Source: Kosakonia radicincitans DSM 16656 (lineage in GTDB: Bacteria > Pseudomonadota > Gammaproteobacteria > Enterobacterales > Enterobacteriaceae). From it: DNA of 64,000 nt. This document shows positions 1-46,108 of the stretch, piece after piece. The stretch lies in the NCBI RefSeq assembly GCF_000280495.2, contig NZ_CP018016.1, forward strand, positions 2,666,001 to 2,730,000, given 5' to 3'. The notes beneath the pieces were generated by a model. It was not told the DNA's origin. It saw nothing but the letters and a program-made list of their open reading frames with translations, and did not search any database. The position numbers were made by a program, and so were the translations under genes. How positions within the stretch are numbered: the stretch's first letter is position 1; each line of letters starts with the position of its first letter.

Positions 1-1086
1 TTCAACATACCTTGCGTATTGATGCGTGGTGGCACGTCTAAGGGACCGGTTATTCTGGCGAGTGACTTACCCGTCGACGTTCAGGAGCGAGACGCGGTTC
101 TGTTGTCTCTGATGGGGGCTGGCCATGAACTGGAAATTGATGGTATCGGTGGGGGGAGCCCACAAACCAGTAAAGTGGCGATTGTGAGCCCTTCGGATAG
201 CCCCGATGCGGACATTGACTATCTTTTCGCGCAGGTCATGGTGAAAGAGCGGCGAGTGGATACAACGCCAAACTGTGGAAATATGTTATGTGCCGTTGGC
301 CCCTTTGCCATTGAAAAGGGACTGGTTGCGCCTAAAAATCCGGTAACAACAGTACGTATCCGCAATCTCAACACGGGAACATTCGTTGATGCCGAAGTGC
401 AGACACCTGATTACCGGGTGAGTTACGAGGGAGATACGCAGATTGATGGCGTGCCGGGTACTGCTGCTCCTGTCGGTTTGACGTTCCTGAATTCCGCAGG
501 CTGCAAAACCGGTAAGTTGCTTCCGACCGGTAATATAACGGATGTGTTTGATGGTGTTGAAGTCACATGCATTGATATGGCAATGCCGATGATCTTAATC
601 GATGCACATCAGATGGATAAAACCGGCAGTGAATCACCGGCTGATCTGGATTCTGATCTGGCGTTTATGCAACGTCTCGAAAAAATCCGTCTCAAAGCAG
701 GTGAGGCGATGGGCTTTGGCGATGTAACCAACAAAGTTATTCCTAAACCCGTCCTTCTTAGCAAACCCACGGCAGGTGGTACGATCAAGGTTCGCTATTT
801 CATGCCGCATAATTGCCATAAATCACTTGCTATTACTGGCTCTATTGGTATTTCTACTGCAACGATAATCGAAGGTTCCGTTGCGCAGAAAATCATTAGC
901 GACCAACCCAAAGATGCATTTACCAATATTGTTAACATTGAGCATCCGAGCGGCAAGATCACAGTTTCTTTATTAAAGTGCGGAAATAAAATAGAAAATA
1001 CCCGTGCTGCTGTAATCAGAACGACTCGTAAATTATTCGAGGGTAATGTTTGTGTTCCGGAAATCGCCTTAGCGGAAGTTATCTAA
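1..1086 (+). CDS. PrpF-family isomerase/tautomerase, 5' end cut by window edge
   Basis: This is a PrpF/4-oxalomesaconate tautomerase family protein (two-domain diaminopimelate-epimerase-like fold). The frame is open to base 1 (FNIPCVLMRGGTSKG), so the true start lies upstream; the family normally has only a short stretch before the MRGGTSKG signature seen at visible residues 8-15. The catalytic-cysteine motif NCGNMLCAVGPFAIEKG is present, as is a C-terminal TGSIGISTATIIEG segment. Known family members move a C=C double bond in tricarboxylates: 2-methylaconitate isomerase, aconitate delta-isomerase, 4-oxalomesaconate tautomerase. Being first in a row with citrate lyase and an aconitase makes aconitate isomerase the most attractive reading, but that is inference. 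Family assignment is firm; substrate is not. Confidence 0.85.
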   Translation, partial: FNIPCVLMRGGTSKGPVILASDLPVDVQERDAVLLSLMGAGHELEIDGIGGGSPQTSKVAIVSPSDSPDADIDYLFAQVMVKERRVDTTPNCGNMLCAVGPFAIEKGLVAPKNPVTTVRIRNLNTGTFVDAEVQTPDYRVSYEGDTQIDGVPGTAAPVGLTFLNSAGCKTGKLLPTGNITDVFDGVEVTCIDMAMPMILIDAHQMDKTGSESPADLDSDLAFMQRLEKIRLKAGEAMGFGDVTNKVIPKPVLLSKPTAGGTIKVRYFMPHNCHKSLAITGSIGISTATIIEGSVAQKIISDQPKDAFTNIVNIEHPSGKITVSLLKCGNKIENTRAAVIRTTRKLFEGNVCVPEIALAEVI

Positions 1087-1180
1087 ACGTTAGCCAGCCT
1101 TTGAAAATCTGAACGTATTAATACCTTTAGCCCGCAAGGGTTAAGAAACTCTGTACCAGAAATATAAAGTTGAGGATATT

Positions 1181-2425
1181 ATGGCTATAACTAATGTTAA
1201 AAATAATTCAGGTGGAACTGGAGATGTTAAAGCAAGTCAATACATCCGTGTGATTTTTGCTTTAGCACTTTCAGGATTGGCTGAATTAGCTTCTTTATTT
1301 TTTATTCAGCCTTTGTTACCTGTACTTGCCGTTGAATATGACGTTCCTGTCCACCAGGTAAGTATTATTCTTTCGGCAGAAACTGCCTTGCTTGCGATTG
1401 GTTTATTGTTCACGGGTACGCTTTCCGATCACTATGGTCGTAAGCGTCTGATTATCGTCTCCTTACTGCTTGGCGGGCTTCTGACGGCTCTTTGTCCGTT
1501 GGTACAGTCCTGGGCCATGCTGGTGGCGTTGCGGGCAGTGATTGGGCTGGCATTGAGCGGCATTGCCGCGGCGGCAACAGCTTATATTAGCGAGGAAGTG
1601 GCGCCGGTCGTTGCAGGGGTGGTAACGGGCTACTTTGTCTTCGGAAACTCGATGGGCGGGATGTCTGGCCGTATCGTCGCCAGCCAGTTGATCGACCATA
1701 TTTCCATCAACACCATCTTCTATGGTTTTGCAGCAAGCCTGATTATTGTTGCAGCACTGGTATTTTTCATTCTGCCAGCCTCTAAAAAATTCACACCTAC
1801 GGAAAACCTGAATGTTTTCCGGGTGGTGAAAGGAGCCGCCTCACATTTTAAAAATAAAAAACTCGCCCTCGCTTTTGTCATTAGCTTCATCATTTTTGGT
1901 ACCTTCACTTCTCTTTACAACTACCTGGCATTTTTCCTTAAGGGTGAACCGTTCCATATCTCTCCTGCGAACGCCGGGCTACTCTCATTCAGCTTTGCAT
2001 TGAGCTTTTTCACTGCGCCGCAAGCTGGTCGTTTATCCGCTAAATATGGCAGCATGAATGTTCTTCGCGCGTTATTTGCCATCATGTCTTTGGGCATGTT
2101 ACTGACATTAACCCCGAACGTAATCACGTTCATCATAGGCGCAGTCATCTTCACCGCATGCTTCTTCGGTTGCCACTCCATTGGCCTGAGCTGGGTGAGT
2201 AAAAACGCCACACATGCACGCGGGCAGGCAGTAGCTCTCTATTTATTCTTCTACTACATGGGCGGCTCAGTGATTGGCTTCTTCAATGGCTTTGTCTTCC
2301 ACGCTACCGGCTGGGCTGGCATGACAGCATTTATTATTGCTTTGCTGGTGCTGGGCATGATTGTGGCGACACACCTTGCCTCAGGTACTAAGGCGAATCT
2401 TGTTCCAGCAGAAACTGCAAAGTAA
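1181..2425 (+). CDS. MFS transporter, YnfM family
   Basis: A 414-residue inner-membrane major facilitator with about twelve hydrophobic segments. The MFS signature between helices 2 and 3 is visible (TGTLSDHYGRKR, near residue 80), as is the YnfM-like GNSMGGMSGR motif near residue 155. An ATG at 1181 is preceded by a GAGGA Shine-Dalgarno. The gene lies 94 nt after the PrpF gene and 72 nt before the FAH-family gene, all on one strand. In this context it probably carries the tricarboxylate handled by the downstream enzymes, although many YnfM relatives are annotated as exporters, so direction and substrate are unproven. No CitT- or CitS-type citrate carrier occurs in the window. Confidence 0.85.
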   Translation: MAITNVKNNSGGTGDVKASQYIRVIFALALSGLAELASLFFIQPLLPVLAVEYDVPVHQVSIILSAETALLAIGLLFTGTLSDHYGRKRLIIVSLLLGGLLTALCPLVQSWAMLVALRAVIGLALSGIAAAATAYISEEVAPVVAGVVTGYFVFGNSMGGMSGRIVASQLIDHISINTIFYGFAASLIIVAALVFFILPASKKFTPTENLNVFRVVKGAASHFKNKKLALAFVISFIIFGTFTSLYNYLAFFLKGEPFHISPANAGLLSFSFALSFFTAPQAGRLSAKYGSMNVLRALFAIMSLGMLLTLTPNVITFIIGAVIFTACFFGCHSIGLSWVSKNATHARGQAVALYLFFYYMGGSVIGFFNGFVFHATGWAGMTAFIIALLVLGMIVATHLASGTKANLVPAETAK

Positions 2426-2441
2426 CCGTAATAATTACATC

Positions 2442-2468
2442 CCTCACGGCTAAAATTGGCGTGAGGGG
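2442..2468 (+). other. intercistronic hairpin between MFS and FAH-family genes
   Basis: An 8-bp perfect inverted repeat, CCCTCACG at 2442-2449 and CGTGAGGG at 2461-2468, has an 11-nt loop. There is no T-run after it, so it is more likely an mRNA-stabilising or attenuating hairpin inside the operon than a full terminator. Confidence 0.5.
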
Positions 2469-2497
2469 GTAAAGCTAAATAGTCATTAGGTGTCATT

Positions 2498-3361
2498 ATG
2501 AAACTTGCAAGTTATATCCATCACGGTCGTAAAAGTTACGGTATTTATACTGAAGCCGGTATTATCGATCTTGGTCAAAAAATTGGTCAGCAATATCCTA
2601 CATTGAAAGATCTTCTGCAATGGGATGCTCTCGCTGTTGCAAAACAGTATGTTGATTATCCAGCGGATATTACTGATAAAGATATTACCTTTTTACCGGT
2701 TATTGAGGAGCCAGGGAAAATTTTCTGCGTGGGAATGAATTATGCAGAAAAAAGAAAGGAGTTCGCTGAAACGAACAATGCGCCGACATTATTTATTCGC
2801 TTCGCGGATTCTCAAACCGGGCATGCAAGACCGGTAATCAAACCGAATATTACTGAAGAATTTGATTACGAAGGCGAACTTGCCGTCATCATCGGAAAAG
2901 CGGGCGAAAATATTATTCGCAGTGATGCGCTGAGCCATGTCGCAGGATATAGCTGCTACATGGATGGCTCTGTTCGTGACTGGCAGCACGCATGGTTTAC
3001 AGCGGGTAAGAACTGGCGTCAAACCGGCGCTTTTGGGCCCTATATGACGACTGTCGATGAAATCCCGGATCCGCACGCTTTATCCATTCAGACATATTTA
3101 AACGGTATGCTGGTTCAGAATGATTCAACAGCCAGTATGATTCATAAAGTTGCCGATCTGATTTCATATATCAGCACCTTCACTACGCTTAGCCCTGGCG
3201 ATGTCATTATTACTGGCTCACCGGGTGGCGTCGGAAAAAAACGTAACCCACCTCTGTTCATGCACGAAGGGGATTGTGTTGAAGTGACAATCGAAAAATT
3301 GGGACGACTGACCAATACAATTGTTGAATCAACGGCGCAATCAAATCTGTTAGCCATTTAA
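2498..3361 (+). CDS. fumarylacetoacetate hydrolase (FAH) family protein
   Basis: A 287-residue FAH-superfamily enzyme. An N-terminal accessory domain is followed, from about residue 75, by the FAH fold. Metal-ligand motifs are visible: DYEGELAVIIG (about residues 122-132) supplies the two glutamates and MDGSVRDWQ (about 155-163) the aspartate. The family's AGKN..TGAFGP and ISTFTTLSPGDVIITG motifs are intact. Members hydrolyse or decarboxylate acylpyruvate-type compounds with Mg/Mn; the human homologue FAHD1 decarboxylates oxaloacetate. Since citrate lyase releases oxaloacetate and no Na-pumping oxaloacetate decarboxylase is seen here, an oxaloacetate decarboxylase role is possible but inferred. 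Overall sequence pattern is closer to aromatic-pathway acylpyruvase members, so another beta-keto or enol acid is a real alternative. Confidence 0.85.
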   Translation: MKLASYIHHGRKSYGIYTEAGIIDLGQKIGQQYPTLKDLLQWDALAVAKQYVDYPADITDKDITFLPVIEEPGKIFCVGMNYAEKRKEFAETNNAPTLFIRFADSQTGHARPVIKPNITEEFDYEGELAVIIGKAGENIIRSDALSHVAGYSCYMDGSVRDWQHAWFTAGKNWRQTGAFGPYMTTVDEIPDPHALSIQTYLNGMLVQNDSTASMIHKVADLISYISTFTTLSPGDVIITGSPGGVGKKRNPPLFMHEGDCVEVTIEKLGRLTNTIVESTAQSNLLAI

Positions 3362-3420
3362 TTTACGCACAATAAATACACAACTCAGTGTCGATTAATA
3401 TCAGGTCAGGAACCATTCAG

Positions 3421-4518
3421 ATGTACGCCGAAAAAATGCCAGAATTCGATACTGTTGAAACGAGCAACGGTGTTCTCAAAGACGAGATTATCCGGTTTCT
3501 GCAAAGTAATGGATTAGGAATAGATGATGATGTCGAGCAGTTCGTTATTGCTCGTACAGGCAAAGAATTAATTGCCTGTGCTGGCCTCGCGGGCAATACC
3601 TTAAAGTGTATTGCCGTTCACATTGAATGGCGCGGAACATCCCTGGGGCTGCAGTTGATCCGTGAAGCTGAATATCTGGCAAACCAAAATGGCGATCATC
3701 ATCTGTTCCTTTTAACCTGTCCTGATAATGTCAAATCTTTCCGTGGATGCGGCTTCTATCCTTTAGCCACCCTTGAGAATAAAGCGACGTTGATGGAAAA
3801 CACCCCGGTTGGCATCCATCGTTACTGCAAGAAACTGCGTGCCGATTATTTCATCCCGGCAGACAACATTGGTGGAATCGTGATGAATGCGAATCCGTTC
3901 ACGTTAGGCCATCAATTTCTTATTGAGCAAGCTTCCCGGGCCTGTCACTGGCTGCATGTTTTTGTTGTAGAGGAGAATTTGTCTCAATTCTCCTTTAATG
4001 ACCGTATTGCAATGGTACGCGATGGCGTGAAACATCTCGCCAATGTAACGGTACACCCTGGTTCCAGATACATTATTTCTCGCGGCACGTTTCCCGGCTA
4101 TTTCTTAAAAGAAAAACAGGTGGTTAATGATGTGTATTCCGCAATCGATTTGATTATTTTTCGGCGTTACATTGCGCCTTCTCTGGGGATTACACATCGT
4201 TTCGTCGGCACTGAGCCATATTGTAAAGTTACTGCCCAATATAACCAGGCAATGCACCACTGGCTTGAAGATGAATTTGTCATTCCATCTAATGCTATTA
4301 CGGTTCATGAAATAGATCGAAAAACTGATGCAAATAATTATCCCATATCCGCATCGGCCGTTCGTTCCCTCTTGAATAAAAACAAACTGTCAGTTGCAAG
4401 AAATATGGTACCAGAAAGCACTATGCCTTATTTACATAACTGGCTGAGAGCAAATCACCATGACTTGCCGGAACCCCATCTGGCAGGGAATCTCATGAGT
4501 ATTAGCGTAGGACATTAA
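3421..4518 (+). CDS. citC: [citrate (pro-3S)-lyase] ligase CitC
   Basis: CitC uses ATP and acetate to acetylate the thiol of the CitD prosthetic group, switching citrate lyase on. The N-terminal half is GNAT-like (LIACAGLAGNTLKCIAV, GCGFYPLATL). The C-terminal half is a nucleotidyltransferase with MNANPFTLGHQFLI (HxGH-like) and ISASAVRSLL. I chose ATG 3421 (365 aa) over an in-frame GTG at 3388 because AGGA sits at a suitable distance before it and the family starts near there. It is the first gene of the classical citCDEFXG order, with 1 nt before citD. Unlike E. coli, it is preceded by catabolic genes rather than by divergent citAB. Confidence 0.95.
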   Translation: MYAEKMPEFDTVETSNGVLKDEIIRFLQSNGLGIDDDVEQFVIARTGKELIACAGLAGNTLKCIAVHIEWRGTSLGLQLIREAEYLANQNGDHHLFLLTCPDNVKSFRGCGFYPLATLENKATLMENTPVGIHRYCKKLRADYFIPADNIGGIVMNANPFTLGHQFLIEQASRACHWLHVFVVEENLSQFSFNDRIAMVRDGVKHLANVTVHPGSRYIISRGTFPGYFLKEKQVVNDVYSAIDLIIFRRYIAPSLGITHRFVGTEPYCKVTAQYNQAMHHWLEDEFVIPSNAITVHEIDRKTDANNYPISASAVRSLLNKNKLSVARNMVPESTMPYLHNWLRANHHDLPEPHLAGNLMSISVGH

Positions 4519-4519
4519 A

Positions 4520-4813
4520 ATGAAAATTGTACAGGCAGCTCTGGCGGGTACGCTGGAATCGAGCGATCTAATGGTTAAAGTTAGCCCTTCGGACGCCGGG
4601 CTGGATATTGTTATTAACAGCGAAGTAATGAAGCAATTTGGCGAGCAAATTACTCAAGTAGTCAAAGAGACGTTAACGGCATTTAACGTCACTCATGGGC
4701 AAATTATTGTGGATGACAAAGGTGCGCTTGATTGTGTTATTCGCTCCCGCATGCAAGTTGCCATTATGCGAGGAACATGCAGCGATGAAATTAACTGGGA
4801 GAAATTACAATGA
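4520..4813 (+). CDS. citD: citrate lyase acyl carrier protein, gamma subunit CitD
   Basis: A 97-residue acyl carrier subunit of citrate lyase. The serine that receives 2'-(5''-triphosphoribosyl)-3'-dephospho-CoA is present as Ser14 in AGTLESSD, exactly where it lies in characterised CitD proteins. Its stop codon overlaps the citE start (ATGA), indicating translational coupling. Confidence 0.96.
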
Positions 4814-5685
4814 AAAAATTACGTCGTAGCATGCTTTTCTTACCAGGCTCAAGTGCTGCCATGTTATCTACTGCTTTTATTTATAAACCCGATTCGATCA
4901 TGTTCGATCTTGAAGATGCGGTTTCTTTGAGGGAGAAGGACAGTGCGCGTATTTTGGTTTTCAATGCGCTCCAGCACCCCATGTATAAAGGTATTGAAAC
5001 GGTTGTACGGATTAACCCTCTGAATACACCCTTTGGATTGAAAGATCTTGAGGCGGCTGTGCGTGCCGGGGTCGATGTCATTCGACTCCCTAAAACGGAT
5101 ACGCCGGAAGATATTCACCAGCTTGAACGTGAAATTGTACGTATTGAGGAAAGCTGTGGCCGTAAAGTCGGTTCCACGCAGCTGATGGCGGCTATTGAGT
5201 CTGCTGTTGGCGTCATCAATGCTGTTGCAATTGCCCGCTCTTCAGATCGGCTGATGGGCATTGCATTAGCCGCATTTGACTACGTAATGGACATGCAAAC
5301 AGAGCGCGGGGATGGTACTGAACTGTTCTATGCGCGTTGTGCGGTTTTACATGCGGCGCGTGCGGCTGGTATCGATGCTTTTGACGTTGTCTATGGCGAT
5401 GTTAACGATGAAGAAGGCTTCTTAAAAGAAGTCGATTTAATTCGCCGCATGGGCTTCAACGGTAAATCTTTAATTAATCCCCGGCAAATTGAGCTGCTTC
5501 ACAATGCCTATGCACCAACCCAGGAAGAGGTTGATTACGCGGAACGCGTAATTACTGCTGCCGAAGAAGGTGAGCGTAGTGGACTGGGGGTGATTTCTCT
5601 GAATGGCAAAATGATTGACGCGCCAATAATCAATCACGCCAGAGTTGTTCTTGAGAGAAGAAAAGCATCAGGCATCCGCCACTAA
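4810..5685 (+). CDS. citE: citrate lyase beta subunit CitE (citryl-ACP lyase)
   Basis: A 291-residue HpcH/HpaI aldolase-family subunit that cleaves citryl-ACP into oxaloacetate and acetyl-ACP. Diagnostic motifs are [15 protein letters not shown] at the N-terminus, [19 protein letters not shown] (metal/substrate region), [26 protein letters not shown] and [16 protein letters not shown]. Length is normal for CitE. It starts at an ATGA overlap with citD and is followed by citF after 17 nt with a GGA-type ribosome site. Confidence 0.96.
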
Positions 5686-5702
5686 TTTACAGGATAATAA
5701 AG

Positions 5703-7223
5703 ATGAGCAAATTAATCGAAGCTTTGCAAGAGCAGGTCGGGCGTTCAAAAGAATATGTCGCATTTACTCATGCCAATGCAGCAACGCCTTATCTTGCAGA
5801 TGCTAAACAAAAATATAAACGTAAGCTTTGTGAAAGTCTGGATGAAATTTTAGACCGTTGTGAACTCCATGATGGTATGACTATTTCATTTCATCATGCC
5901 TTCCGTGAAGGTGATAAAGTTATCAATCTTGTGGTAGATAAACTTGCCTCATTGGGTCTGAAAGGTATTACTCTGGCATCCAGTTCATTAATGACCTGTA
6001 ATGCTCCTTTAATTAATCATCTTCGTAATGGGGTGATTACGAAAATTTATACCTCCGGTATGCGTGGAGAGTTAGCTGATGCTATTTCTCATGGCCTGAT
6101 GGAGGAACCGGTACAAATTCATTCGCATGGTGGTCGTGTTAATCTCATTCAGAACGGTGAAATTAATATTGATGTCGCCTTCCTGGCTGTCTCCTGTTCC
6201 GATGAATATGGCAATGCCAGTGGTAGTGGTGGTAAGTCACGCTGTGGCTCTCTGGGCTATGCCATGGTTGATGCTACATACGCGAAACGTGTTGTACTGC
6301 TGACCGAATCCATTGAACCTTTCCCTTATATGCCTGCGAGCATTGTTCAGGATCAGGTCGATTACATTGTTAAAATTGACAGTGTTGGTGACCCTGCAAA
6401 AATCAGCGTCGGCGCCGCCCGCGTAACCAGTAATCCTCGTGAGTTAATGATCGCGCGTTCAGCGGCTGATGTGGTTGAGCATTCGGGTTACTTCGAACAG
6501 GGATTCTCAATCCAGACAGGTTCAGGCGCGGCTTCAACGGCATGTACGCGTTTTTTAGAATCGCGCATGAAAAATAAAAACATTACTGCGAGTTTCGCAT
6601 TGGGTGGTATCACCGGCAGTATTGTCGATCTTCATGAGAAAGGGTTGATCGCAAAACTGCTGGATACCCAGAGTTTTGATAGCGCTGCCGCAGCCTCTTT
6701 AGCCAGAAACCCAAACCATGTTGAAATCTCAACCAACGTTTACGCTAACCCGGCATCGAAAGCGGCATGCTGCGATCGGGTCGATATTGTGATTTTAAGC
6801 GCCCTTGAAATTGATACAAATTTCAACGTTAACGTGCTGACGGGATCGGATGGTGTGATGCGCGGTGCTTCCGGCGGTCACTGTGATGTTGCTGCTGCAG
6901 CGAACCTGACAGTGGTTGTTGCGCCGCTGATCCGCAGCCGAATTCCGACCGTTGTGAAGCACGTTACAACATGCGTTACACCGGGTGAAAGCATTGATGT
7001 ATTGGTCACCGATCACGGTATTGCGGTAAACCCTTCACGTCCTGAAATTTATCAGCGACTGGTGGATAAAGGGTTACCTGTCGTGAGCATTGAGGATTTA
7101 TATCAGCGTGCGCTGGAAATCTCCGGTCATCCAAAAGCCATCGAATTTACGTCCAAAATTGTGGGCGTTGTTCGTTACCGCGATGGAAGCGTCATTGACG
7201 TTGTGCGGCAGGTTAAAGAGTAA
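5703..7223 (+). CDS. citF: citrate lyase alpha subunit CitF (citrate:ACP transferase)
   Basis: The 506-residue alpha subunit exchanges acetyl-ACP for citryl-ACP. The CoA-transferase-like fold is recognisable from GMTISFHHAFREGD near the N-terminus, SHGGRVNLIQNGEI, the SCSDEYGNASGSGGKSRCGSLG region, and the C-terminal GASGGHCDVAAAA motif. Full length compared with the roughly 510 residues usual in enterobacteria. Its TAA stop overlaps the citX ATG (TAATG). Confidence 0.96.
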   Translation: MSKLIEALQEQVGRSKEYVAFTHANAATPYLADAKQKYKRKLCESLDEILDRCELHDGMTISFHHAFREGDKVINLVVDKLASLGLKGITLASSSLMTCNAPLINHLRNGVITKIYTSGMRGELADAISHGLMEEPVQIHSHGGRVNLIQNGEINIDVAFLAVSCSDEYGNASGSGGKSRCGSLGYAMVDATYAKRVVLLTESIEPFPYMPASIVQDQVDYIVKIDSVGDPAKISVGAARVTSNPRELMIARSAADVVEHSGYFEQGFSIQTGSGAASTACTRFLESRMKNKNITASFALGGITGSIVDLHEKGLIAKLLDTQSFDSAAAASLARNPNHVEISTNVYANPASKAACCDRVDIVILSALEIDTNFNVNVLTGSDGVMRGASGGHCDVAAAANLTVVVAPLIRSRIPTVVKHVTTCVTPGESIDVLVTDHGIAVNPSRPEIYQRLVDKGLPVVSIEDLYQRALEISGHPKAIEFTSKIVGVVRYRDGSVIDVVRQVKE

Positions 7224-7768
7224 TGGACACTATGGCAGGCGTATCGTGCACACCCATTTCTTTGGATCAGTTACTGGCAGCCAGAGAAGCTCGTTCGTAC
7301 CAGCAACAACTCTGGTTGACCCGTTGGGGACAAACCCTGATTTCTACGACCCTGGTCTGGCCAGGTGAGGTAAAAGATACGCCTGAATCAAGGGCTGTCA
7401 TGGCGGCAGCAAATGAAGCGCTCACTGCGCTGATCGCCACCAATGGCTGGGAAATCATCAGGCACGACGCTCGCCAGTTTGTTACCGGGCCAGAGTCATT
7501 CTGGTCCGTCAGCGCACCCGCATCACAGGTAAAGAAGGCCACAATACGTCTGGAAGAGAGTCATCCACTGGGAAGGTTGTGGGATATCGATGTGTTTTGC
7601 CCGGATACCGGTTTATTGAGCCGCAAATCTGTCGGTGAAAACAAAAGACGCTGTTTCATCTGTGATGAGCCGGCACATGTCTGTTCACGAATGCGGCGAC
7701 ATTCGCTCCACGCTTTACAAGCAGTTATGGGGGATATGATTGATGACTATTTCTGCCATCAGAAATGA
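7223..7768 (+). CDS. citX: apo-citrate lyase phosphoribosyl-dephospho-CoA transferase CitX
   Basis: CitX attaches the phosphoribosyl-dephospho-CoA precursor to Ser14 of apo-CitD. The 181-residue protein shows the family's LAAREARSYQQQ, TTLVWPGEVKDTPESR and HPLGRLWDIDVF segments, and a C-terminal cluster of cysteine and histidine residues (CFICDEPAHVCSR). It is separate from CitG, as in E. coli, whereas some bacteria fuse the two. It overlaps citG by 26 nt. Confidence 0.93.
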   Translation: MDTMAGVSCTPISLDQLLAAREARSYQQQLWLTRWGQTLISTTLVWPGEVKDTPESRAVMAAANEALTALIATNGWEIIRHDARQFVTGPESFWSVSAPASQVKKATIRLEESHPLGRLWDIDVFCPDTGLLSRKSVGENKRRCFICDEPAHVCSRMRRHSLHALQAVMGDMIDDYFCHQK

Positions 7769-8615
7769 ACCGTTCACTCATGAACTTAACATTGCGGAGC
7801 TGGCTGCGGAGGGGATGTACCGCGAAGTCATTCTGACACCGAAACCAGGGCTGGTAGACCGTCATAATAATGGGTCGCATATCGACATGGATTTCAACCT
7901 GTTCATGTCCAGTATTGCAGCAATTGCCCCCTGGTTCGCATTGTTTGTTGCAAAAGGGCGACAAACAGCTAAGCAAGAGTCCAGGCAGACGCTCCTGGCC
8001 ATCCGACCTGTAGGGCTTGCCTGTGAGCAGGCAATGTTCAGAGCGACGGGGGGGATCAACACCCACAAAGGGGGAATTTTTTCGCTGGGCCTGTTTTGTT
8101 CTGCTGCCGGGCGGCTGAAAGGTAAGGGCGAAGCTATCAATCGCGGAGCGCTTTGCCGGGAAGTTAGCCTGATCTGCGCCGGTATGGTGAGCCGGGAGTT
8201 GAAACACAATGGCGATGCGAAAACCAAAGGTGAACAACTGTTTCGCGATTATGGCTTTACCGGAGCGCGTGGGGAGGCTGAAAGTGGCTTTGCGACGGTA
8301 AGGATTCATGGATTACCCGTATGGGAAAACGCCATTAACGCGGGTTATTCGCCCGAGGAGTCTTTACTGCGGGTTTTGCTTTCATTAATTGCTCACAATC
8401 CGGATACCAATATCCTCGCGCGTGGGGGCCTCAAAGGGTTGCGCTATGCACAGCGATATGCGGCCAGAATCCTGCGCATTAAACGCTTCACCGGCAACAG
8501 GTTCAGGCAGGCGCTTTTAAATATGGACAAAGCGTTCATTGCCCGAAATTTAAGTCCGGGAGGAAGTGCGGATCTGCTGGCCGTCACCTGGCTGCTGGCG
8601 AATTTTCCGGCCTGA
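7743..8615 (+). CDS. citG: triphosphoribosyl-dephospho-CoA synthase CitG
   Basis: CitG makes 2'-(5''-triphosphoribosyl)-3'-dephospho-CoA from ATP and dephospho-CoA. Family motifs are LTPKPGLVDRHNNGSHIDMD (about residues 32-51), GGINTHKGGIFSLG (about 103-116), AHNPDTNILARGG and the C-terminal LSPGGSADLLAVTW. I prefer ATG 7743 (290 aa) over the adjacent TTG at 7740. It ends the citCDEFXG block; the next gene follows after 22 nt. Confidence 0.94.
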   Translation: MTISAIRNEPFTHELNIAELAAEGMYREVILTPKPGLVDRHNNGSHIDMDFNLFMSSIAAIAPWFALFVAKGRQTAKQESRQTLLAIRPVGLACEQAMFRATGGINTHKGGIFSLGLFCSAAGRLKGKGEAINRGALCREVSLICAGMVSRELKHNGDAKTKGEQLFRDYGFTGARGEAESGFATVRIHGLPVWENAINAGYSPEESLLRVLLSLIAHNPDTNILARGGLKGLRYAQRYAARILRIKRFTGNRFRQALLNMDKAFIARNLSPGGSADLLAVTWLLANFPA

Positions 8616-8637
8616 AAGGCTGGAAAACTAAGGACTG

Positions 8638-9213
8638 ATGGAATTTACCATGACAATACCGCGTCTGTTAAAGCTGGATGATTCTTTCACCACGATTCTT
8701 GTTCCGGGATTAAGAGATAGCGACGATTACCACTGGCAAACCTGCTGGGCGCGTCGTTTACCTCGCTGGAAAAGAATAAGCCAACGAAACTGGTTGCAGC
8801 CGGATATTGAAAATTGGGGCGCAGCGATTCGCAGAGAATTAGCCACCTGTACTTTGCCCGTTATTTTGATTGGGCATAGTTTTGGCGCGCTTGCATCCTG
8901 GTACCAGATCCAGAGCAGAGCGGTAAATGTTGCCGGGATTGTTATGGTTGCGCCTGCTGAACCTTCACATTTTGAACTTGAAGAAGTTGTCACCGCGTCG
9001 AAGTTAAAAATACCCGGAATGGTCTTTGCCAGTCACAATGACCCGCTTATGTCATTCAATCGCGCTGTATTTTGGTCTGACAGTTGGGGATGCGAGTTGA
9101 TAGATGTCGGCGATGCTGGTCATATTAATTCTGAATCCGGATTTGGCGAGTGGGAATATGGACTTGAAAAAGTATCAGAATTTGGAGAGATGCTATTAAA
9201 AACAGACAAATGA
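8638..9213 (+). CDS. RBBP9/YdeN-type serine alpha/beta hydrolase
   Basis: A 191-residue soluble alpha/beta hydrolase. An N-terminal LVPGLRDSDDYHWQTCW segment is followed by the nucleophile elbow IGHSFGAL, with Ser at about residue 82, then ASHNDPLMSF carrying the acid residue and DAGHINSESGFGEW carrying the catalytic histidine. This matches the RBBP9/YdeN esterase-like family, whose bacterial substrates are mostly unknown. It lies between citG and the aconitase gene, 22 nt after citG, so it is probably co-transcribed. It is not a standard component of cit operons. It might recycle a thioester or lactone by-product, but nothing in the sequence shows that. Confidence 0.8.
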   Translation: MEFTMTIPRLLKLDDSFTTILVPGLRDSDDYHWQTCWARRLPRWKRISQRNWLQPDIENWGAAIRRELATCTLPVILIGHSFGALASWYQIQSRAVNVAGIVMVAPAEPSHFELEEVVTASKLKIPGMVFASHNDPLMSFNRAVFWSDSWGCELIDVGDAGHINSESGFGEWEYGLEKVSEFGEMLLKTDK

Positions 9214-9275
9214 ATTTTTTAATGTAGATGACACCCTGACACATTTTCAATCTCCTGTTATAAGGTCGAAATCCT

Positions 9276-11870
9276 ATGTTTGAAGCATATAAAATACATG
9301 TCGCTGAACGGGCAAAAAATGGCATACCAGCAAAACCGCTCACCGCTCAGCAGACCAGCGAATTAATTACTCTCCTCGAAAATGAACAGTGTGAGGAACG
9401 AGAATGTTTAATTAATCTGTTAATTAATCAGGTTTCTCCTGGTGTTGATGCCGCTGCGAAAGTCAAAGCGGAATTTCTTGATAAAATCATTAAGGAAAAA
9501 ACAAATCAATACGGCATTACTCCCAACAACGCTATAAATATTCTTGGCACTATGCAGGGTGGATACAATATTCAACCTCTTATTGATTCGTTAGATGACG
9601 ACGAGTTAGCTCCTTTAGCGGCCATTAAACTGAGCCACACAATTCTTATTTTTGAAAAATTTAAAGATATCGAGCAGAAAGCCGGTAATGGAAATGCTCA
9701 TGCCAAAGCGATTATTGAATCATGGGCCAATGCCGAGTGGTTTACCGAACGCGCCGGGCTTGATGAAAAAATAACCCTGACCGTATTTAAAGTCCCCGGT
9801 GAAACGAATACGGATGATCTTTCTCCGGCGCCTGAGGCGTGGTCACGCCCGGATATTCCCCTGCATGCGCTCTCAATGCTGAGTTCTGTAAGGGAAGGGG
9901 TGAATCCTGACCAGCCGGGACAATGCGGCCCGATATCTCAGATACAAGCATTAAAAAACCAGCAGTATCCTCTCGCTTACGTCGGGGATGTGGTGGGGAC
10001 CGGTTCTTCACGAAAATCTGCGACGAACTCAATCCTGTGGCATATCGGCAAGGATATCCCTTTCGTGCCGAACAAACGCAGCGGGGGTTTTGTCTTCGGA
10101 GGGAAAATTGCGCCTATCTTTTTCAATACCCTGGAGGATTCCGGTGCATTTCCCATTGAGCTGGATGTCTCTGGTTTATCAACGGGGATGCTGATCGATC
10201 TTTATCCGTACAAAGGCGAGATCCGCAACCATCGCGATCAAACGCTGATTGCCTCATTTCACCTGAAAACTGAAGTTTTGCTGGATGAAGTACAGGCAGG
10301 TGGCCGCATTCCGTTGATCATTGGCCGTAGCTTAACAGCAAGAGCCAGGGAGTCTCTGGGGCTGCAAACAACGTCCATTTTCAGAAAACCAAAGGCGCCT
10401 GAACCTTCTTCTGCAGGGTTTACACTGGCGCAAAAAATGGTTGGCAGAGCGTGCGGGGTTGAAGGTATTCGCCCTGGTCAATATTGTGAACCTAAAATCA
10501 CCACGGTGGGTTCGCAGGATACGACCGGCGGGATGACGCGCGATGAACTGACGGATCTTGCATGCTTAGGGTTTTCTGCCGATCTGGTCATGCAGTCGTT
10601 TTGCCACACATCCGCGTATCCAAAACCTGTCGACGTTAATTTGCATAAGACGCTGCCTCAGTTCATTACCAGCAGAAAAGGCGTTGCACTGAAACCGGGC
10701 GATGGAATTATCCATTCATGGCTTAACCGCATGCTCATCCCTGACACAGTGGGGACGGGGGCTGATTCACATACGCGCTTTCCATTAGGGATCTCATTCC
10801 CTGGCGGTTCCGGACTGGTTGCTTTTGCGGCGGCCACTGGAATTATGCCTCTCGATATGCCTGAATCTGTGCTGGTCCGCTTTAAGGGTGAAATGCAAAA
10901 AGGGATCACTCTGCGCGATTTAGTGCATGCGATTCCTTACTACGCCATTAAGCAAGGGTTGTTAACGACGGAGAAGAAAAACAAGCGCAATATTTTCTCC
11001 GGCCGTATCCTGGAAATCGAAGGTTTGCAAATGCTAAAAGCCGAGCAGGCCTTTGAACTGGCCGATGCCTCCGCTGAGCGCTCTGCTGCTGCCTGTGTGT
11101 TACGTCTCGAAGAAGAGAACGTTACGGAGTATTTGCGTTCCAATGCCACTTTGCTGCGCTGGATGATTGACCAGGGTTATCAGCATGCGCCAACGCTTGA
11201 AAAGCGCATTGCAGAGATCGAAGCCTGGCTGGCGAATCCGTCATTACTGAGTGCAGATGAAAATGCTGAGTACGCGGCAATCATTGAAATCGATCTGGCT
11301 GAAATTACGGAGCCGATTGTTTGTGCGCCAAATGACCCTGACGATGCCCGTTTACTGTCCGACGTTGCCCGCACGCCAGTAGAGGAGGTTTTCATTGGCT
11401 CCTGCATGACAAATATTGGTCACTTCCGGGCCGCCGGGAAACTGCTGGCAGAGTCCAAAGAGATTCCTGCCCGGCTGTGGATTGCTCCGCCAACCAAAAT
11501 GGATGCACAGCAGCTTTCCAGCGAAGGGTATTTTAATAAGCTCATCCGCTCCGGAGCGCGAATTGAGCCGGCTGGCTGCTCACTTTGCATGGGCAATCAG
11601 GCCCGGGTTAAAGAAGGGAGCAGCGTTGTTTCCACATCAACCCGTAACTTTCCGCACCGTCTTGGTACCGATGCAAAAGTCTTCCTGGCATCAGCTGAGC
11701 TCAGTGCGATTGCCGCAATGCTTGGCAAAATGCCAACCGTTGAACAGTATCTCTGGCATATGGACAGGATCAATGACACCCGGGAAGATACTTATCGTTA
11801 CTTAAATTTCCATCAGTTGGCTGAGTATCAAACAGCGGGAAATGAACGCATTGATGTCGTAACGATTTAA
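9276..11870 (+). CDS. aconitate hydratase B paralogue (AcnB-like)
   Basis: An 864-residue AcnB-type aconitase, collinear with E. coli AcnB (865 aa). N-terminal HEAT-like domain, then the swivel domain ([38 protein letters not shown]), then the catalytic domains. The [4Fe-4S] cysteines are all present: Cys710 in [11 protein letters not shown], and Cys768 and Cys771 in [10 protein letters not shown]. Substrate motifs [19 protein letters not shown] and [11 protein letters not shown] are kept, so it should be active. It interconverts cis-aconitate, citrate and isocitrate. Housekeeping acnB normally sits near pdhR-lpd, so this is probably a second copy dedicated to the cluster. It starts at ATG 9276 after an AAGGT site, 62 nt downstream of the hydrolase gene. 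Confidence 0.93.
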
Positions 11871-11910
11871 GCTTCACGGTTCTTGTTGCTGGCCTGATAG
11901 CCTGGTGTGA

Positions 11911-11951
11911 CTGATCTTAATCGGCGTAAATCTTCAGCCGATTAAGATCAG
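11911..11951 (+). terminator. perfect 15-bp hairpin closing the citrate lyase/aconitase cluster
   Basis: CTGATCTTAATCGGC (11911-11925) pairs perfectly with GCCGATTAAGATCAG (11937-11951) around an 11-nt loop, 41 nt after the aconitase stop. No T-run follows on either strand, so it may be a factor-assisted terminator or a 3'-end stabiliser. A second, shorter repeat (TTGGTGTCG 11967-11975 with CGACACCAA 12007-12015) lies just beyond it, before the end of the convergent RidA-like gene. Confidence 0.55.
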
Positions 11952-12054
11952 AGTGACAACGTCGGGTTGGTGTCGGCATTGCCCGGCCATGCGCGCGAAG
12001 CATGAACGACACCAATACCGGCATCAAGCGGCGGCAATATGCGCGTTCCTGTTT

Positions 12055-12450
12055 TTATCGGGCAGGAATTCGGGCAATGACCTTAATTTCAAAATCGAAT
12101 CCTGCAAGCCAGGTAACGCCTACGGCAGTCCAGTTTGGATAGGGTGGCTGCGGGAAGATCGCCTGTTTTATCTGCATAATTGTTGGAAACTGGTTTTGCG
12201 GATCGGTATGAAAGGTCGTGACATCAATCAGATCGTCAAACGTACAACCTGCGGCAGCAAGCGTCGCTTGCAGATTATCGAATGCCCGTTGCACCTGAGC
12301 GGCAAAATCTGGCTCCGGCGTACCGTCGGCGCGGCTACCGACCTGGCCGGAAACAAACAACAAATCTCCGGAACGGATGGCGGCTGAATAACCATGTTCT
12401 TCATAAAGCGCATGACGGTTAGCCGGGAAAATGGGTTCACGCTGGATCAT
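12055..12450 (-). CDS. RidA/YjgF family protein
   Basis: A 131-residue single-domain RidA-superfamily protein (trimeric, cytosolic). The family pattern is visible as YSAAIRSGDLLFVSGQVGSRADG near the start, AAQVQRAFDNLQATLAAAG in the middle and a C-terminal FEIKVIARIP. RidA proteins deaminate reactive enamine/imine intermediates, while other subfamilies act in specific catabolic routes; this one is not obviously RidA itself. It is divergently transcribed from a TetR regulator across a 120-bp region with two palindromes, so it is the likely target of that regulator. Confidence 0.85.
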   Translation of the reverse strand: MIQREPIFPANRHALYEEHGYSAAIRSGDLLFVSGQVGSRADGTPEPDFAAQVQRAFDNLQATLAAAGCTFDDLIDVTTFHTDPQNQFPTIMQIKQAIFPQPPYPNWTAVGVTWLAGFDFEIKVIARIPAR

Positions 12451-12512
12451 AGGGTTTCCTTTTTTCAGTGAATGTTAAAAACGAGAAGCAGGGTGCTGAC
12501 AAATCGTTTAAT

Positions 12513-12554
12513 ATACGCGGCGTATGTTAAATTAATATCACATACGCCGCGTAT
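12513..12554. promoter_or_regulatory. twin palindromic operators between ridA-like and tetR genes
   Basis: ATACGCGGCGTAT (12513-12525) and its exact reverse complement ATACGCCGCGTAT (12542-12554) lie 29 bp centre to centre. Each is itself a 13-bp palindrome around one central base, as TetR dimers prefer. The downstream copy lies 16 bp before the tetR start codon and immediately next to the AAGGAG ribosome site, so binding should repress tetR; the pair also sits in the promoter region of the divergent RidA-like gene. Confidence 0.7.
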
Positions 12555-12570
12555 GTCAAAAGGAGATCGC

Positions 12571-13155
12571 ATGATCAAGCGTCGTAGCGAAACGATGGAA
12601 GAGAACCGGGGCAGGTTGATTAGTGCAGCGCGAAAGGCGTTTGCAGAAAAAGGCTATGCCGCCGCATCAATGGATGAGTTAACGGCCAGCGTAGGCCTGA
12701 CGCGCGGCGCGCTCTATCACAATTTTGGTGATAAAAAGGGGTTGCTTGCCGCGGTTGTTGCGCAGGTGGATGGTGAAATGGCACAACGCGCAAAAGCGGT
12801 TGCGGCCACTGCCAACGATGAGTGGGAGAGGTTACTGGCCGAAGGGATTGCCTACATCAAAATGGCTCTCGACCCGGAAGTGCAGCGTATTGTTTTACTG
12901 GATGGTCCGGCTTTTCTCGGCGACCCGGCGCAGTGGCCAAGCCAGAATAGCTGCCTGGAATCCACCCGCCAGGCGGTGTTGAATATGATTGATCGTGGTA
13001 TTCTTAAGTCGGTGGATGCCGATGCCGCTGCGCGCATGTTAAATGGTGCGGCAATGAATGCCGCGCTGTCGATTGCGGCCTGCGACGATCCGCAAAAAGC
13101 GCTTCCTAACTATATTGAGGTATTTACGCTCCTGGCGAGCGGCTTACGTAATTAA
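12571..13155 (+). CDS. TetR/AcrR family transcriptional regulator
   Basis: A 194-residue TetR-family repressor. The N-terminal HTH runs over residues 10-56 (RLISAARKAFAEKGYAAAS, then VGLTRGALYHNFGDKKGLL), followed by an all-helical ligand domain. ATG 12571 was chosen because AAGGAG ends 5 nt before it, whereas longer versions would begin inside the operator region. It very likely binds the two palindromes directly upstream and controls itself and the divergent RidA-like gene. The ligand is unknown. Confidence 0.88.
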   Translation: MIKRRSETMEENRGRLISAARKAFAEKGYAAASMDELTASVGLTRGALYHNFGDKKGLLAAVVAQVDGEMAQRAKAVAATANDEWERLLAEGIAYIKMALDPEVQRIVLLDGPAFLGDPAQWPSQNSCLESTRQAVLNMIDRGILKSVDADAAARMLNGAAMNAALSIAACDDPQKALPNYIEVFTLLASGLRN

Positions 13156-16093: not shown

Positions 16094-17383
16094 TCAGGCA
16101 CGGCGAACAAAAGCTTTGATGCCTGCATATCGGGCTTCATTGCCCAGTTCCTGCTCAATGCGCATAAGCTGATTGTATTTTTCAATACGTTCGCCGCGGC
16201 ATGGCGCGCCGGTTTTCAGATGCCCCGCCCGCAATGCCACCGTCATGTCGGCGATAAACGTGTCCATGGTTTCACCGCTGCGGTGCGAAATAAAAGCGCC
16301 CCATCCGTGTTCATGACACAGTGAAACCGCGTCGAACGTCTCGCTCAACGTACCAATCTGGTTGAGTTTGATGAGCGCCGCGCTGGCCAGGTTTTCTTCA
16401 ATACCCCGGCGGATATACTTCACATTCGTTACGAAAAGGTCGTCACCGACCAGTTCGGCGCGTCCGCCAAGTTTCTCATGCAGATGTTTCCAGCCAGCCC
16501 AGTCATCCTCGGCGAGCCCGTCTTCAAGCAGGACAATGGGGAAGTGGCTCATCAGTTCACCATAATAATCCGTCATCTCTTCAGCGCTCAGGGCGCTGTT
16601 TTCGGTGCGAAGGTGATATTTCCCGTCACGGTAAAATTCGCTGGATGCCGGGTCCATACAGATACTGATATCTTCCCCCGGTCGGTAACCGGCTTTCTCA
16701 ATGGCCTGAACAATGAATTCCAGCGGCTCACGGTTCGAGGAGACGGCCGGAGCAAATCCCCCTTCATCGCCCACCGCAGCGGAGAGGTTCCGGGACAGCA
16801 GGATCTGGCGCAGAGTCTGATAGACCTCGTTGCCCTGACGAACGGCCTCTGCCAGCGTTGAAGCACCGTGCGGTGCTATCATGAATTCCTGAAAATCGGC
16901 TCCCTGACCACGGGCATGAACGCCACCGTTAATAATATTCATACACGGAACGGGCAAAAGGCTGGCATTGAGTCCGCCGAGATAGCGGTAAAGTGGCTGA
17001 CGGGTGACCTGAGCGGCCAGTCTGGCCACCGCCAGCGAAACACCCAGAATGGCATTGGCACCAAGTCGGCTTTTGTTCTCCGTACCGTCCAGTTCCCGCA
17101 TCAGATTATCCAGTCGCCGCTGCTCCCGCACATCGGTTCCCCTGACGGCGTCGCAAATTTCTGTCTCCACGGCCTTAACGGCATCACGGACTCCTTTCCC
17201 GCCGAAACGCCCGGGATCACCATCGCGGCGTTCAGTTGCCTCTCTTGAGCCGGTACTGGCCCCGGACGGTACCGATGCACGTGCCATCTGACCATCTGAA
17301 GTAAAAGCGTCCACCTCAACCGTGGGATTACCGCGAGAGTCGAGAATTTCGCGGGCCGTGACTTTTTCAAGTAGAAAATTCAT
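16094..17383 (-). CDS. enolase, divergent second copy
   Basis: A 429-residue phosphopyruvate hydratase (2-phosphoglycerate to phosphoenolpyruvate). Active-site landmarks are present: SGASTGSREA loop, GDEGGFAP (catalytic Glu), CMDPASSEF, LLEDGLAEDDW and GDDLFVTN (Mg ligands), LIKLNQIGTL (catalytic Lys) and ISHRSGET. It is distinctly unlike typical enterobacterial Eno in wording (for example SICMDPASSEF, ALRAGHLKTGAPCRGER), and housekeeping eno lies next to pyrG elsewhere, so this is an acquired paralogue. It follows the usp gene by 16 nt and ends a three-gene operon with a pyrophosphatase. Likely role: sustaining lower glycolysis under stress (inference). Confidence 0.93.
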   Translation of the reverse strand: MNFLLEKVTAREILDSRGNPTVEVDAFTSDGQMARASVPSGASTGSREATERRDGDPGRFGGKGVRDAVKAVETEICDAVRGTDVREQRRLDNLMRELDGTENKSRLGANAILGVSLAVARLAAQVTRQPLYRYLGGLNASLLPVPCMNIINGGVHARGQGADFQEFMIAPHGASTLAEAVRQGNEVYQTLRQILLSRNLSAAVGDEGGFAPAVSSNREPLEFIVQAIEKAGYRPGEDISICMDPASSEFYRDGKYHLRTENSALSAEEMTDYYGELMSHFPIVLLEDGLAEDDWAGWKHLHEKLGGRAELVGDDLFVTNVKYIRRGIEENLASAALIKLNQIGTLSETFDAVSLCHEHGWGAFISHRSGETMDTFIADMTVALRAGHLKTGAPCRGERIEKYNQLMRIEQELGNEARYAGIKAFVRRA

Positions 17384-19089: not shown

Positions 19090-20703
19090 TCACGCTACCA
19101 GAGGCGAGTGTTCGACAATCTTACCCGACTCCAGCTTAATGAGCCGATCCGCCAGATGGAAATAGCGATCGTCATGAGTAATGGCGATCACGGTTTTCCC
19201 CTCCGCTTTCAGCATTGGCAGCAACTCGAGATAGAAAACGGCCTTAAACTCCGGATCCTGGTCGGCAGCCCATTCATCGAACAGATAGATCGGGCGGTTC
19301 TCCAGCCAGCTCTGCAACAGGGCCAGTCTTTTACGCTGCCCCTGAGAGAGTGCGACGGTAGAGAAGCGCCCGTTGTTAAAGCTGACTTTATGCTTAAGTT
19401 TGAGCAGGTTAAGAAGATGCTCAACCTGTGACTGCGTCCGATCGGTGACGAACACAACATCATCAAAGAGAAAGAAATCGCTGAAAATCACTGAAAAGTG
19501 CTGACGCCAGTGCTGGAGATCGTCTGCCGCGACAGGGTTGCCATTCAGCCATAGCTGGCCGCTGTCAGCGGGGAAGATCCCCACCAGCAAGTTTGCCAGC
19601 GTGGTTTTACCGCTACCGTTGCCGCCAACGATAAAGACACGCTCCCCGGGCGTAAAGGTCAGGCTCAACGGGCCGAGGGAAAAACGTTCCCCATCTTCAC
19701 CCTGATACTGGTAGTGAATATTCTCCAGTGCCAGAGAGGTAAATGGTTCTGCCGCGTACGTTTTCGGGGAAATTTCCGGGCTTAATCCGGTGGTAAGTTG
19801 CTGGACCCGCTGCATTGCGATCCGGGCACCTGCGATGGCAGGCAGAGCAGAGAGGATGCCTTCCACCGGAACCACCATATACAGGAAGACCATGATATAG
19901 CCAGTCAACGTTCGGGTATCCAGTGCCAGCATGTCGCGCAGCCCGAAGAGTACGACTCCGATAAAGGCAAAAAACAGAATACTGCCCCAACTGCTGGCCA
20001 GACCGTACAGTGCGTACCCCCGGGTGCGCTCCCGGCATACGGCTTCAATGGTATGGGACAACTCACTGCCAACAAACTGCTGGCGGCGCATGGTATTGAG
20101 CCTGAACTCCCGTGCGCCATCGAACAATTTTTTACACTGCTGAATCAGCGTATCTTCCCGTTGACGCGACGTGCGCAACAGCCCCATTGCCGGGCCCTGA
20201 GCCGCACGATAGCCGAAACTTCCCAGCAGGATGGCAACGATAGCCAGCAACAGAACGCTCGGCGACAGGCTGCCAAGGTAGATGAGGCAGCCAGCGATCA
20301 CTGCACCATAGATACAAAGGTTAGGCAGGCTAACAAAAAAGACTACCAGCGTATCGAGATCCTGCGTCAATGCCGATAACGCTTTCGCCATTCCGGCTTT
20401 TTCCAGCTGCAGCCAACTGGTTTCACTGATGTTCCGGACCAGTTGTTTACGCAGTCGGGCTTTCACCTTTTGGCCCAGCGACATAAATGTCGTTTGAGAG
20501 ATAACCCGGCTGGCCAGCATCAGCAGGGTCAGCAGGGCGAAGTCGACACCGGGGCTGAACCAGGCGGCGGACAGAGGCTGGTTAAGGCTGTGGTTAATCA
20601 TTGCCAGCAGCGTAGCATTACAAAAACCGCTGATCAGCCCAGCGATCGTGGCGAGGATAAGCCAGCCTCGAACCATCCTGAAGACCATTATCAATACCGA
20701 CAT
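19090..20703 (-). CDS. YojI/PvdE-type (cyclic peptide export) ABC transporter
   Basis: A 537-residue fused permease-ATPase half-transporter of the inner membrane. About six TM helices fill residues 1-300. The ATPase domain has Walker A VGGNGSGKTTL (about 365), a signature variant LSQGQRKRLAL instead of LSGGQ, and Walker B IYLFDEWAADQDP with the catalytic Glu. DEWAADQDP is characteristic of the YojI/SyrD/PvdE exporters of peptides, microcins and siderophore precursors. ATG 20703 was chosen because AAGGA lies 6 nt before it. It follows the fhuB-like gene by 29 nt. It may export a siderophore or return the stripped carrier; it is not an importer ATPase. Confidence 0.87.
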   Translation of the reverse strand: MSVLIMVFRMVRGWLILATIAGLISGFCNATLLAMINHSLNQPLSAAWFSPGVDFALLTLLMLASRVISQTTFMSLGQKVKARLRKQLVRNISETSWLQLEKAGMAKALSALTQDLDTLVVFFVSLPNLCIYGAVIAGCLIYLGSLSPSVLLLAIVAILLGSFGYRAAQGPAMGLLRTSRQREDTLIQQCKKLFDGAREFRLNTMRRQQFVGSELSHTIEAVCRERTRGYALYGLASSWGSILFFAFIGVVLFGLRDMLALDTRTLTGYIMVFLYMVVPVEGILSALPAIAGARIAMQRVQQLTTGLSPEISPKTYAAEPFTSLALENIHYQYQGEDGERFSLGPLSLTFTPGERVFIVGGNGSGKTTLANLLVGIFPADSGQLWLNGNPVAADDLQHWRQHFSVIFSDFFLFDDVVFVTDRTQSQVEHLLNLLKLKHKVSFNNGRFSTVALSQGQRKRLALLQSWLENRPIYLFDEWAADQDPEFKAVFYLELLPMLKAEGKTVIAITHDDRYFHLADRLIKLESGKIVEHSPLVA

Positions 20704-20732
20704 CTGTATTCCTTTCACTTTATGCACATTCT

Positions 20733-25691: not shown

Positions 25692-25720
25692 AGCACTTCC
25701 GCTTGTTATTAGAATTGAAT

Positions 25721-25739
25721 GGAAATGATAATTATTCAA
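25721..25739 (-). promoter_or_regulatory. Fur-box-like site upstream of the siderophore receptor
   Basis: GGAAATGATAATTATTCAA matches 13 of 19 positions of the Fur consensus, including an unbroken AATGATAAT core. It lies 30 bp before the receptor ATG, inside the expected promoter, so iron-dependent repression of the operon is likely. No binding data can be inferred beyond the match. Confidence 0.65.
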
Positions 25740-25871
25740 CTTCAAAAGAGAAGCGGAAGCATGGCAGAATGGCGTAACTAAAGGCAAGAGTGTTGTCAGG
25801 CAGACAAAGCTTGTCTTCCTAATCAGCAATCAGGATGAAAAATGGTTTGAATCGGACAAAGGGCATGGCAG

Positions 25872-46104: not shown

Positions 46105-46108
46105 AAAC

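Follow-up and report, generated by a model that had tools for sequence, protein, structure and literature searches.

Why should a bacterium that is already equipped with a citrate lyase operon hold a second set of citrate lyase genes, and hold it between a PrpF-family isomerase and an extra aconitase? The question is raised by a 64,000-nucleotide stretch of the 6.12-Mb genome of Kosakonia radicincitans DSM 16656 (G000:C1:2666001-2730000; hereafter the window), in which eleven genes on the same strand extend across positions 1-11870. The answer favored here, at a probability of roughly three in four, is that they form an operon under LysR control that serves growth on trans-aconitate and probably its fermentation. 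It draws on the gene content of the cluster, an order conserved in other genomes, the fact that isomerase and citrate lyase were brought together repeatedly, the separation of the isomerase from the oxalomesaconate isomerases, and a conserved operator-like dyad.

In the proposed route, the MFS protein would import trans-aconitate and the PrpF-family protein would convert it to cis-aconitate, a 1,3-allylic proton shift via Lys59 and Cys93. A dedicated AcnB would hydrate cis-aconitate to citrate, which citrate lyase (CitDEF, matured by CitC, CitX and CitG) would split into acetate and oxaloacetate. The FAH protein may hold oxaloacetate in the keto form, decarboxylate it towards pyruvate, or both. 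A LysR protein acting at ATTAATG-N9-CATTAAT would sense the substrate, and the pathway would presumably also serve anaerobically. This route, ending perhaps in pyruvate, had been put forward in an initial annotation of the sequence; neighborhood and tree evidence now favors it, supporting it without amounting to proof.

The gene cluster and its recurrence

All genes named in the initial annotation are borne out by open reading frame (ORF), NCBIfam and Pfam matches, in the order and on the strand then described:

1..1086, + strand: PrpF-family isomerase, proposed aconitate isomerase (PF04303, 405 bits; 61.6% to E. coli YbhH)
1181..2425, + strand: MFS carrier, proposed trans-aconitate importer (PF07690)
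2498..3361, + strand: FAH-superfamily enzyme, proposed oxaloacetate tautomerase/decarboxylase (PF01557; 68% to the citS-operon copy)
3388..4518, + strand: citC, citrate lyase ligase (TIGR00124, 395 bits, cut-off 262)
4520..4813, + strand: citD, citrate lyase acyl carrier protein (TIGR01608, 106 bits, cut-off 63.5)
4810..5685, + strand: citE, citrate lyase beta subunit (TIGR01588, 470 bits, cut-off 443)
5703..7223, + strand: citF, citrate lyase alpha subunit (TIGR01584, 743 bits, cut-off 501)
7223..7768, + strand: citX (TIGR03124, 190 bits, cut-off 105)
7743..8615, + strand: citG (TIGR03125, 320 bits, cut-off 272; ATG at 7743, the ORF list starting at TTG 7740)
8638..9213, + strand: PF06821-type serine hydrolase (PF06821)
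9276..11870, + strand: AcnB-type aconitase, second copy (TIGR00117, 1418.8 bits, cut-off 1287.2)

All six cit proteins (CitC, D, E, F, X and G) thus exceed their curated NCBIfam cut-offs, and the spacing between adjacent genes, from -26 to +94 bases, makes a single operon plausible. The isomerase ATG occupies the three bases directly before the window (G000:C1:2665998-2666000). Upstream of it, across an intergenic region of 155 bases and just outside the window, lies a divergent LysR gene (L002:8916-9842). The gene set therefore stands as first listed, but its beginning has to be moved, as the LysR gene comes first. A promoter and terminator scan of window positions 1-12600 gave no signal beyond the shuffle range, the lysR-isomerase promoter falling outside that stretch. 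Megablast with the 12 kb of cluster DNA gave no hit to the plasmid collection or to the E. coli genomes. On the 3' side the cluster is followed by a RidA-family gene on the opposite strand and a TetR gene. In G006, a genome of the genus that lacks the isomerase, a decayed copy of the cluster remains (L231:10230-12489): the serine hydrolase and a portion of citG, still flanked by the same RidA/TetR and MFS genes.

The same genome carries a second citrate lyase operon (L059, G000:C1:783000-802000), whose CitF is 74% identical to that of the cluster. Its order is a sensor/regulator pair (recognized by eye), a citS-type carrier (409.9 bits on TIGR00783, below the cut-off of 549), FAH and citCDEFXG. 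A housekeeping AcnB, 69% identical to the cluster AcnB, is also present. CitS/CitT, CitAB and OadGAB are all absent from the cluster, and its order is, as initially noted, unlike that of classical citrate-fermentation clusters.

Gene-neighborhood searches place this order in other genomes and genera, so it is neither confined to one genome nor a product of chance. Of 145 related genomes searched at E <= 1e-20, 53 have isomerase-family matches, and longer stretches were fetched for the 20 best besides the window's own. With the window's genome included, isomerase and citrate lyase genes occur together in nine genomes (G000, G003, G008, G009, G081, G084, G031, G071 and G016); the cluster is found in four of the 15 same-genus genomes (G000, G003, G008, G009) and also in other genera. 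A scan of named genomes, several of them shared with the 145-genome set, covered the best 80 of 467 confirmed isomerase loci, down to 65% identity, with genes counted downstream on the same strand within 11 kb. The same type of LysR gene is divergent upstream of the isomerase in all 80, and a transporter lies downstream in 79. Carboxylate families account for 61 of these carriers (CitMHS 55, TctA 5, DASS 1), and the MFS type of the window for 18. The series MFS-FAH-citCDEFXG-serine hydrolase-acnB is complete in 12 loci and lacks only the serine hydrolase in 2 more; the Celerinatantimonas locus is without serine hydrolase and citX, and contig ends interrupt three (one after citC, two after MFS). 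Sixty of the 80 belong to Pseudomonadaceae; the carrier is of the CitMHS family in 55 of them, OprD-TctC-TctA is found in the other 5, and none of the 60 has a CitC, CitE or CitF match within the fetched stretch. At one locus of Providencia rustigianii (L067), the tree puts the LysR-isomerase pair with those of Kosakonia, yet no cluster genes lie downstream; transposase-like genes, identified by eye, are found about 2 kb beyond the pair. Such a pair without its cluster suggests horizontal transfer and loss.

The region between lysR and the isomerase contains the dyad ATTAATG-N9-CATTAAT with one mismatch, 104 bases 5' of the isomerase start (G000:C1:2665894-2665916). Across 33 such regions from Enterobacterales and Celerinatantimonas (some genomes represented twice), the best dyad match is 11-14 of 14 positions, and 12 of 660 shuffles reach 11. 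The E. coli ybhD-ybhH region scores 13 of 14. Support is weaker in Pseudomonadaceae, where 60 regions give 10-12 and shuffles often reach 10 (154 of 1200). A common operator-like dyad suggests, from sequence, a shared inducer. The full operator does not occur elsewhere in the genome at up to one mismatch; as a control pattern gave two matches, this uniqueness alone proves little. The TarR motif TTATAA has no occurrence in the 155-base region.

Isomerase, citrate lyase and their partner enzymes

The evidence that we judge strongest for a single pathway is that isomerase and citrate lyase were repeatedly joined. The isomerases of Mangrovibacter and Prodigiosinella group with the Kosakonia type (99/99), while their CitC (100/99), CitF (98/96) and CitG (100/99) are nested among the proteins of citS operons. 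In Entomohabitans (G016) and at a second locus of Providencia rustigianii (L229), a DASS carrier lies beside the isomerase together with genes for citrate lyase, and here CitF and CitG group with E. coli citT-operon proteins (100/100 and 100/99). An AcnB gene follows in Entomohabitans; the 19-kb stretch of L229 has no AcnB or FAH match. Approximately unbiased (AU) tests were run on CitG, AcnB and FAH, with CitC and CitF judged from trees alone. A single clade was rejected for cluster CitG (p-AU 0.0034, in a set that includes a long Celerinatantimonas row) and for the cluster AcnB copies (p-AU 0.014). It was not rejected for FAH (p-AU 0.198), so FAH itself is no evidence of independent assembly. 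Since CitC, CitF and CitG fall into different clades and a single AcnB clade is rejected, isomerase and citrate lyase appear, from these trees, to have come together at least three times. For Mangrovibacter and Prodigiosinella, the alternative to a new assembly is that an inherited operon had some of its parts replaced; the combination was kept either way.

The isomerase also stands apart from its namesakes. In a tree of 47 rows, which carried warnings on long branches elsewhere in the tree, ten proteins from galBCD contexts form one branch with LigU (support 99/98). The window protein lies outside it, on a second branch (85/86) with cit-linked, Pseudomonas and ybhHIJ proteins. An AU test of the galBCD group minus LigU as its own clade rejected that grouping (p 0.0102), since LigU falls within it. 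All ten stretches around the galBCD-context isomerases contain matches to both GalB and GalC, and neither galB nor galC is among the eleven genes of the cluster. The best 80 named loci hold no GalB match, with one weak RraA-type match (34%, L078). A single galB query gave no match in this genome; its matches in the other nine galBCD stretches are at 56-85%.

Most of the NCBI names carried by the best 120 homologues of the isomerase are 4-oxalomesaconate tautomerase. The corresponding model, NF033377, gives the window protein 523.6 bits against a cut-off of 440. Scores above that cut-off (502.9-552.4 bits) are also reached by YbhH, one Pseudomonas relative, two relatives from cit-linked loci and, highest among them, two proteins from galBCD contexts. 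A model that takes in members of both clades does not separate them, and the tautomerase name is likely an over-naming of this clade. Of 8000 scored proteins, 7753 are homologues at E <= 1e-60, a figure that covers homologues inside or outside the clade. Lys59 and Cys93 of the window protein are invariant in all seven aligned homologues and align with Lys66 and Cys100 of LigU, the residues that LigU uses; the catalytic pair of SoPrpF is K73/C107.

The partner enzymes fit the route to different degrees. The columns of Cys710, Cys769 and Cys772 of E. coli AcnB hold cysteine in 11 of 11 cluster AcnB rows, and a strict comparison of 28 housekeeping with 23 cluster rows (some partial or from the same genome) yields no fixed difference that would mark a specialized aconitase. 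FAH is not special to the cluster: the initial annotation rightly counted it as a cluster gene, but a copy also sits in the citS operon of this genome. In 30 fetched FAH loci (best matches, one per genome), FAH adjoins citC in 26. Of these, 8 belong to this cluster, 17 have FAH between citS and citC, and 1 has citC but no citS in reach; in the other 4 loci FAH does not adjoin citC. A related FAH is found in all 15 genomes of the genus, 12 times within the citS operon, the remaining 3 not being among the fetched stretches. Some other enterics have oxaloacetate decarboxylase genes between citS and citC, where Kosakonia citrate operons have FAH. This genome has no oadA above cut-off (9 weak matches), the same model passing in 3 of 14 control genomes. 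Given its place in the citS operon and, usually, directly before citC, the FAH protein probably acts on oxaloacetate.

Its product is another matter. The initial annotation suggested pyruvate; oxaloacetate as substrate has gained support from the neighborhood, but pyruvate formation is less sure, since the FAHD proteins tested in one study are reported to act chiefly as tautomerases of oxaloacetate and to decarboxylate it slightly (PMC10825186). A FAH protein of C. glutamicum is described as a soluble oxaloacetate decarboxylase, in a paper that also gives E-x-E and D as metal ligands (PMC4534308). The window FAH contains the motifs DYEGE and MDGSVRD. HpaG and 6j57 have a lid His, and all 12 aligned FAH rows have Lys in its place. 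The lid His-Glu pair is presumably a functional feature of FAHD-type enzymes. Three of the ten galBCD stretches (L051, L053, L057) also have an FAH gene, a second oxaloacetate-producing context, as the aldolase of that pathway also releases oxaloacetate.

The serine hydrolase has a relative in PDB entry 3bdv, labelled uncharacterized. It is missing from 3 of 15 named clusters that extend to acnB and is intact but alone in one Kosakonia genome. A trans-aconitate methyltransferase, which would support an esterase role, has 7 weak matches in the genome and none above cut-off.

Elsewhere in the window, three further groups of genes were observed, all on the minus strand:

16094-17383, - strand: 429-aa enolase-family protein with both enolase domains
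19090-25829, - strand: iron-siderophore-type uptake genes for a TonB-dependent receptor, a 656-aa FecCD permease matched over two stretches, and a 544-aa protein with an ABC ATPase
40952-47455, - strand: three neighboring genes, the middle one (43123-46116) encoding a SrfB-family protein

Other readings of the cluster

An ordinary second citrate-fermentation operon, with the MFS protein as citrate importer and the isomerase serving only to remove trans-aconitate, an inhibitor of aconitase, is unlikely. It would account for the complete citrate lyase set and for an FAH gene of the kind found in the citS operon, and trans-aconitate is indeed reported to inhibit aconitase (PMC13188880). Yet the genome already has its citS operon, and citrate lyase alone does not need an aconitase. 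Furthermore, the 60 Pseudomonadaceae loci pair the isomerase with LysR and carboxylate transporters and have no CitC, CitE or CitF match within the fetched stretch; an isomerase that occurs there without citrate lyase looks like the committed step. It is quite improbable that the cluster acts on another tricarboxylate such as 2-methylaconitate, homoaconitate or tricarballylate. The PrpF family includes the 2-methylaconitate isomerase of the methylcitrate cycle (PMC5690661), and the AcnB model TIGR00117 is also named for 2-methylisocitrate dehydratase, but the window isomerase reaches only 179 bits on the prpF model TIGR02334 (cut-off 440.55). The eleven genes include no methylcitrate synthase, methylcitrate-cycle lyase or tricarballylate dehydrogenase, and citrate lyase is the natural next step after citrate.

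A role of the isomerase as a 4-oxalomesaconate tautomerase, in a cluster for gallate or protocatechuate breakdown, is very improbable. The NF033377 score speaks for it, but YbhH and the Pseudomonas relative pass the same cut-off, the galB-galC-galD set belongs to the other clade, with LigU, and a single galB query gave no match in the genome. The gallate pathway was rejected on tree position and neighborhood. Hardly credible at all is an operon that makes and exports trans-aconitate, as tbrAB of Bacillus thuringiensis does. Bacterial aconitate isomerases are reported to favor trans-aconitate formation in vitro (PMC11495376) and Enterobacterales that produce it have been isolated (PMC13188880); citrate lyase in the same operon would, however, destroy the precursor, and in relatives the isomerase is paired with citrate or tricarboxylate transporter families and OprD porins.

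Several points weigh against trans-aconitate catabolism itself. The MFS carrier, whose best NCBIfam match (78 bits) is far below cut-off and whose only PDB matches are two weak ones, has no characterized close relative among these matches. The catalytic Lys and Cys are common to the whole PrpF family and give no indication of substrate. The E. coli relatives ybhD-ybhHIJ have been linked to L-malate (PMC9068703), and the homologue of TarA in one Providencia rettgeri isolate, which may or may not belong to this clade, is reported to have less than 1% activity (PMC11495376). Franconibacter is reported to use trans-aconitate, yet it is not among the best 80 loci, so other routes may exist.

Comparison with known systems

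Trans-aconitate is found in maize, sugarcane and sorghum, and isolates of Enterobacter, Citrobacter, Pantoea, Serratia and Providencia are reported to use it, with no genes assigned in the available text of that study (PMC13188880). In an earlier study, some Pantoea and Serratia that use it had no homologue of TarA (PMC11495376). Phenotype tables list Enterobacter pasteurii as using trans-aconitate and not tricarballylate. A literature search over titles and abstract openings, with most subscription journals outside its coverage, found no description of this gene combination or of ybhHIJ with aconitate; the chemistry has a precedent in Acidaminococcus. If the trans-aconitate reading is true, it provides a genetic basis for trans-aconitate fermentation in culturable Enterobacterales and suggests how grass-associated bacteria profit from this compound. 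It would also correct the database name of many proteins and give E. coli ybhH, ybhI and ybhJ a testable function. A broader and more tentative idea, which we consider possible but doubtful, is that the LysR-linked PrpF clade, YbhH included, is the main aconitate isomerase of Gammaproteobacteria. In plant-associated enterics it would have been coupled to citrate lyase on at least three independent occasions, in most cases together with an additional AcnB, to give a full trans-aconitate fermentation operon.

The E. coli set ybhD-ybhH-ybhI-ybhJ shares a divergent LysR (55%), an isomerase (62%), a putative tricarboxylate transporter and an aconitase-family protein, and its function is unproven. 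It has no citrate lyase, YbhI is unlike the MFS carrier, and YbhJ matches Pfam Aconitase and Aconitase_C rather than AcnB domains. With E. coli citCDEFXG-citT (dpiBA) and its own citS-FAH-citCDEFXG, the cluster shares the citCDEFXG order and, with the latter, FAH before citC. It differs in having no CitS/CitT or two-component pair and in having LysR, isomerase, MFS and aconitase genes.

The two ends of the proposed route match published systems. Acidaminococcus fermentans ferments trans-aconitate by the same path through citrate, oxaloacetate and pyruvate (PMC3035267); its genes, as given in Table 6 of that report, are spread over several loci (for example Acfer_0096/0097, 0406-0410 and 1971/1973), and this table includes no aconitate isomerase. 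The PrpF of Shewanella, for its part, is reported to have aconitate isomerase activity and was crystallized with trans-aconitate (PMC5690661). In tarR-tarAB of Bacillus velezensis FZB42, a proven trans/cis-aconitate isomerase of the PrpF superfamily is combined with an MFS importer and a divergent LysR (PMC11495376). The Kosakonia cluster, compared with tar by layout and description rather than by TarA/TarB sequence, has divergent LysR, PrpF-superfamily isomerase and MFS carrier in the same order. Whereas tar delivers cis-aconitate to the tricarboxylic acid cycle, the Kosakonia cluster adds genes for FAH, citrate lyase and aconitase.

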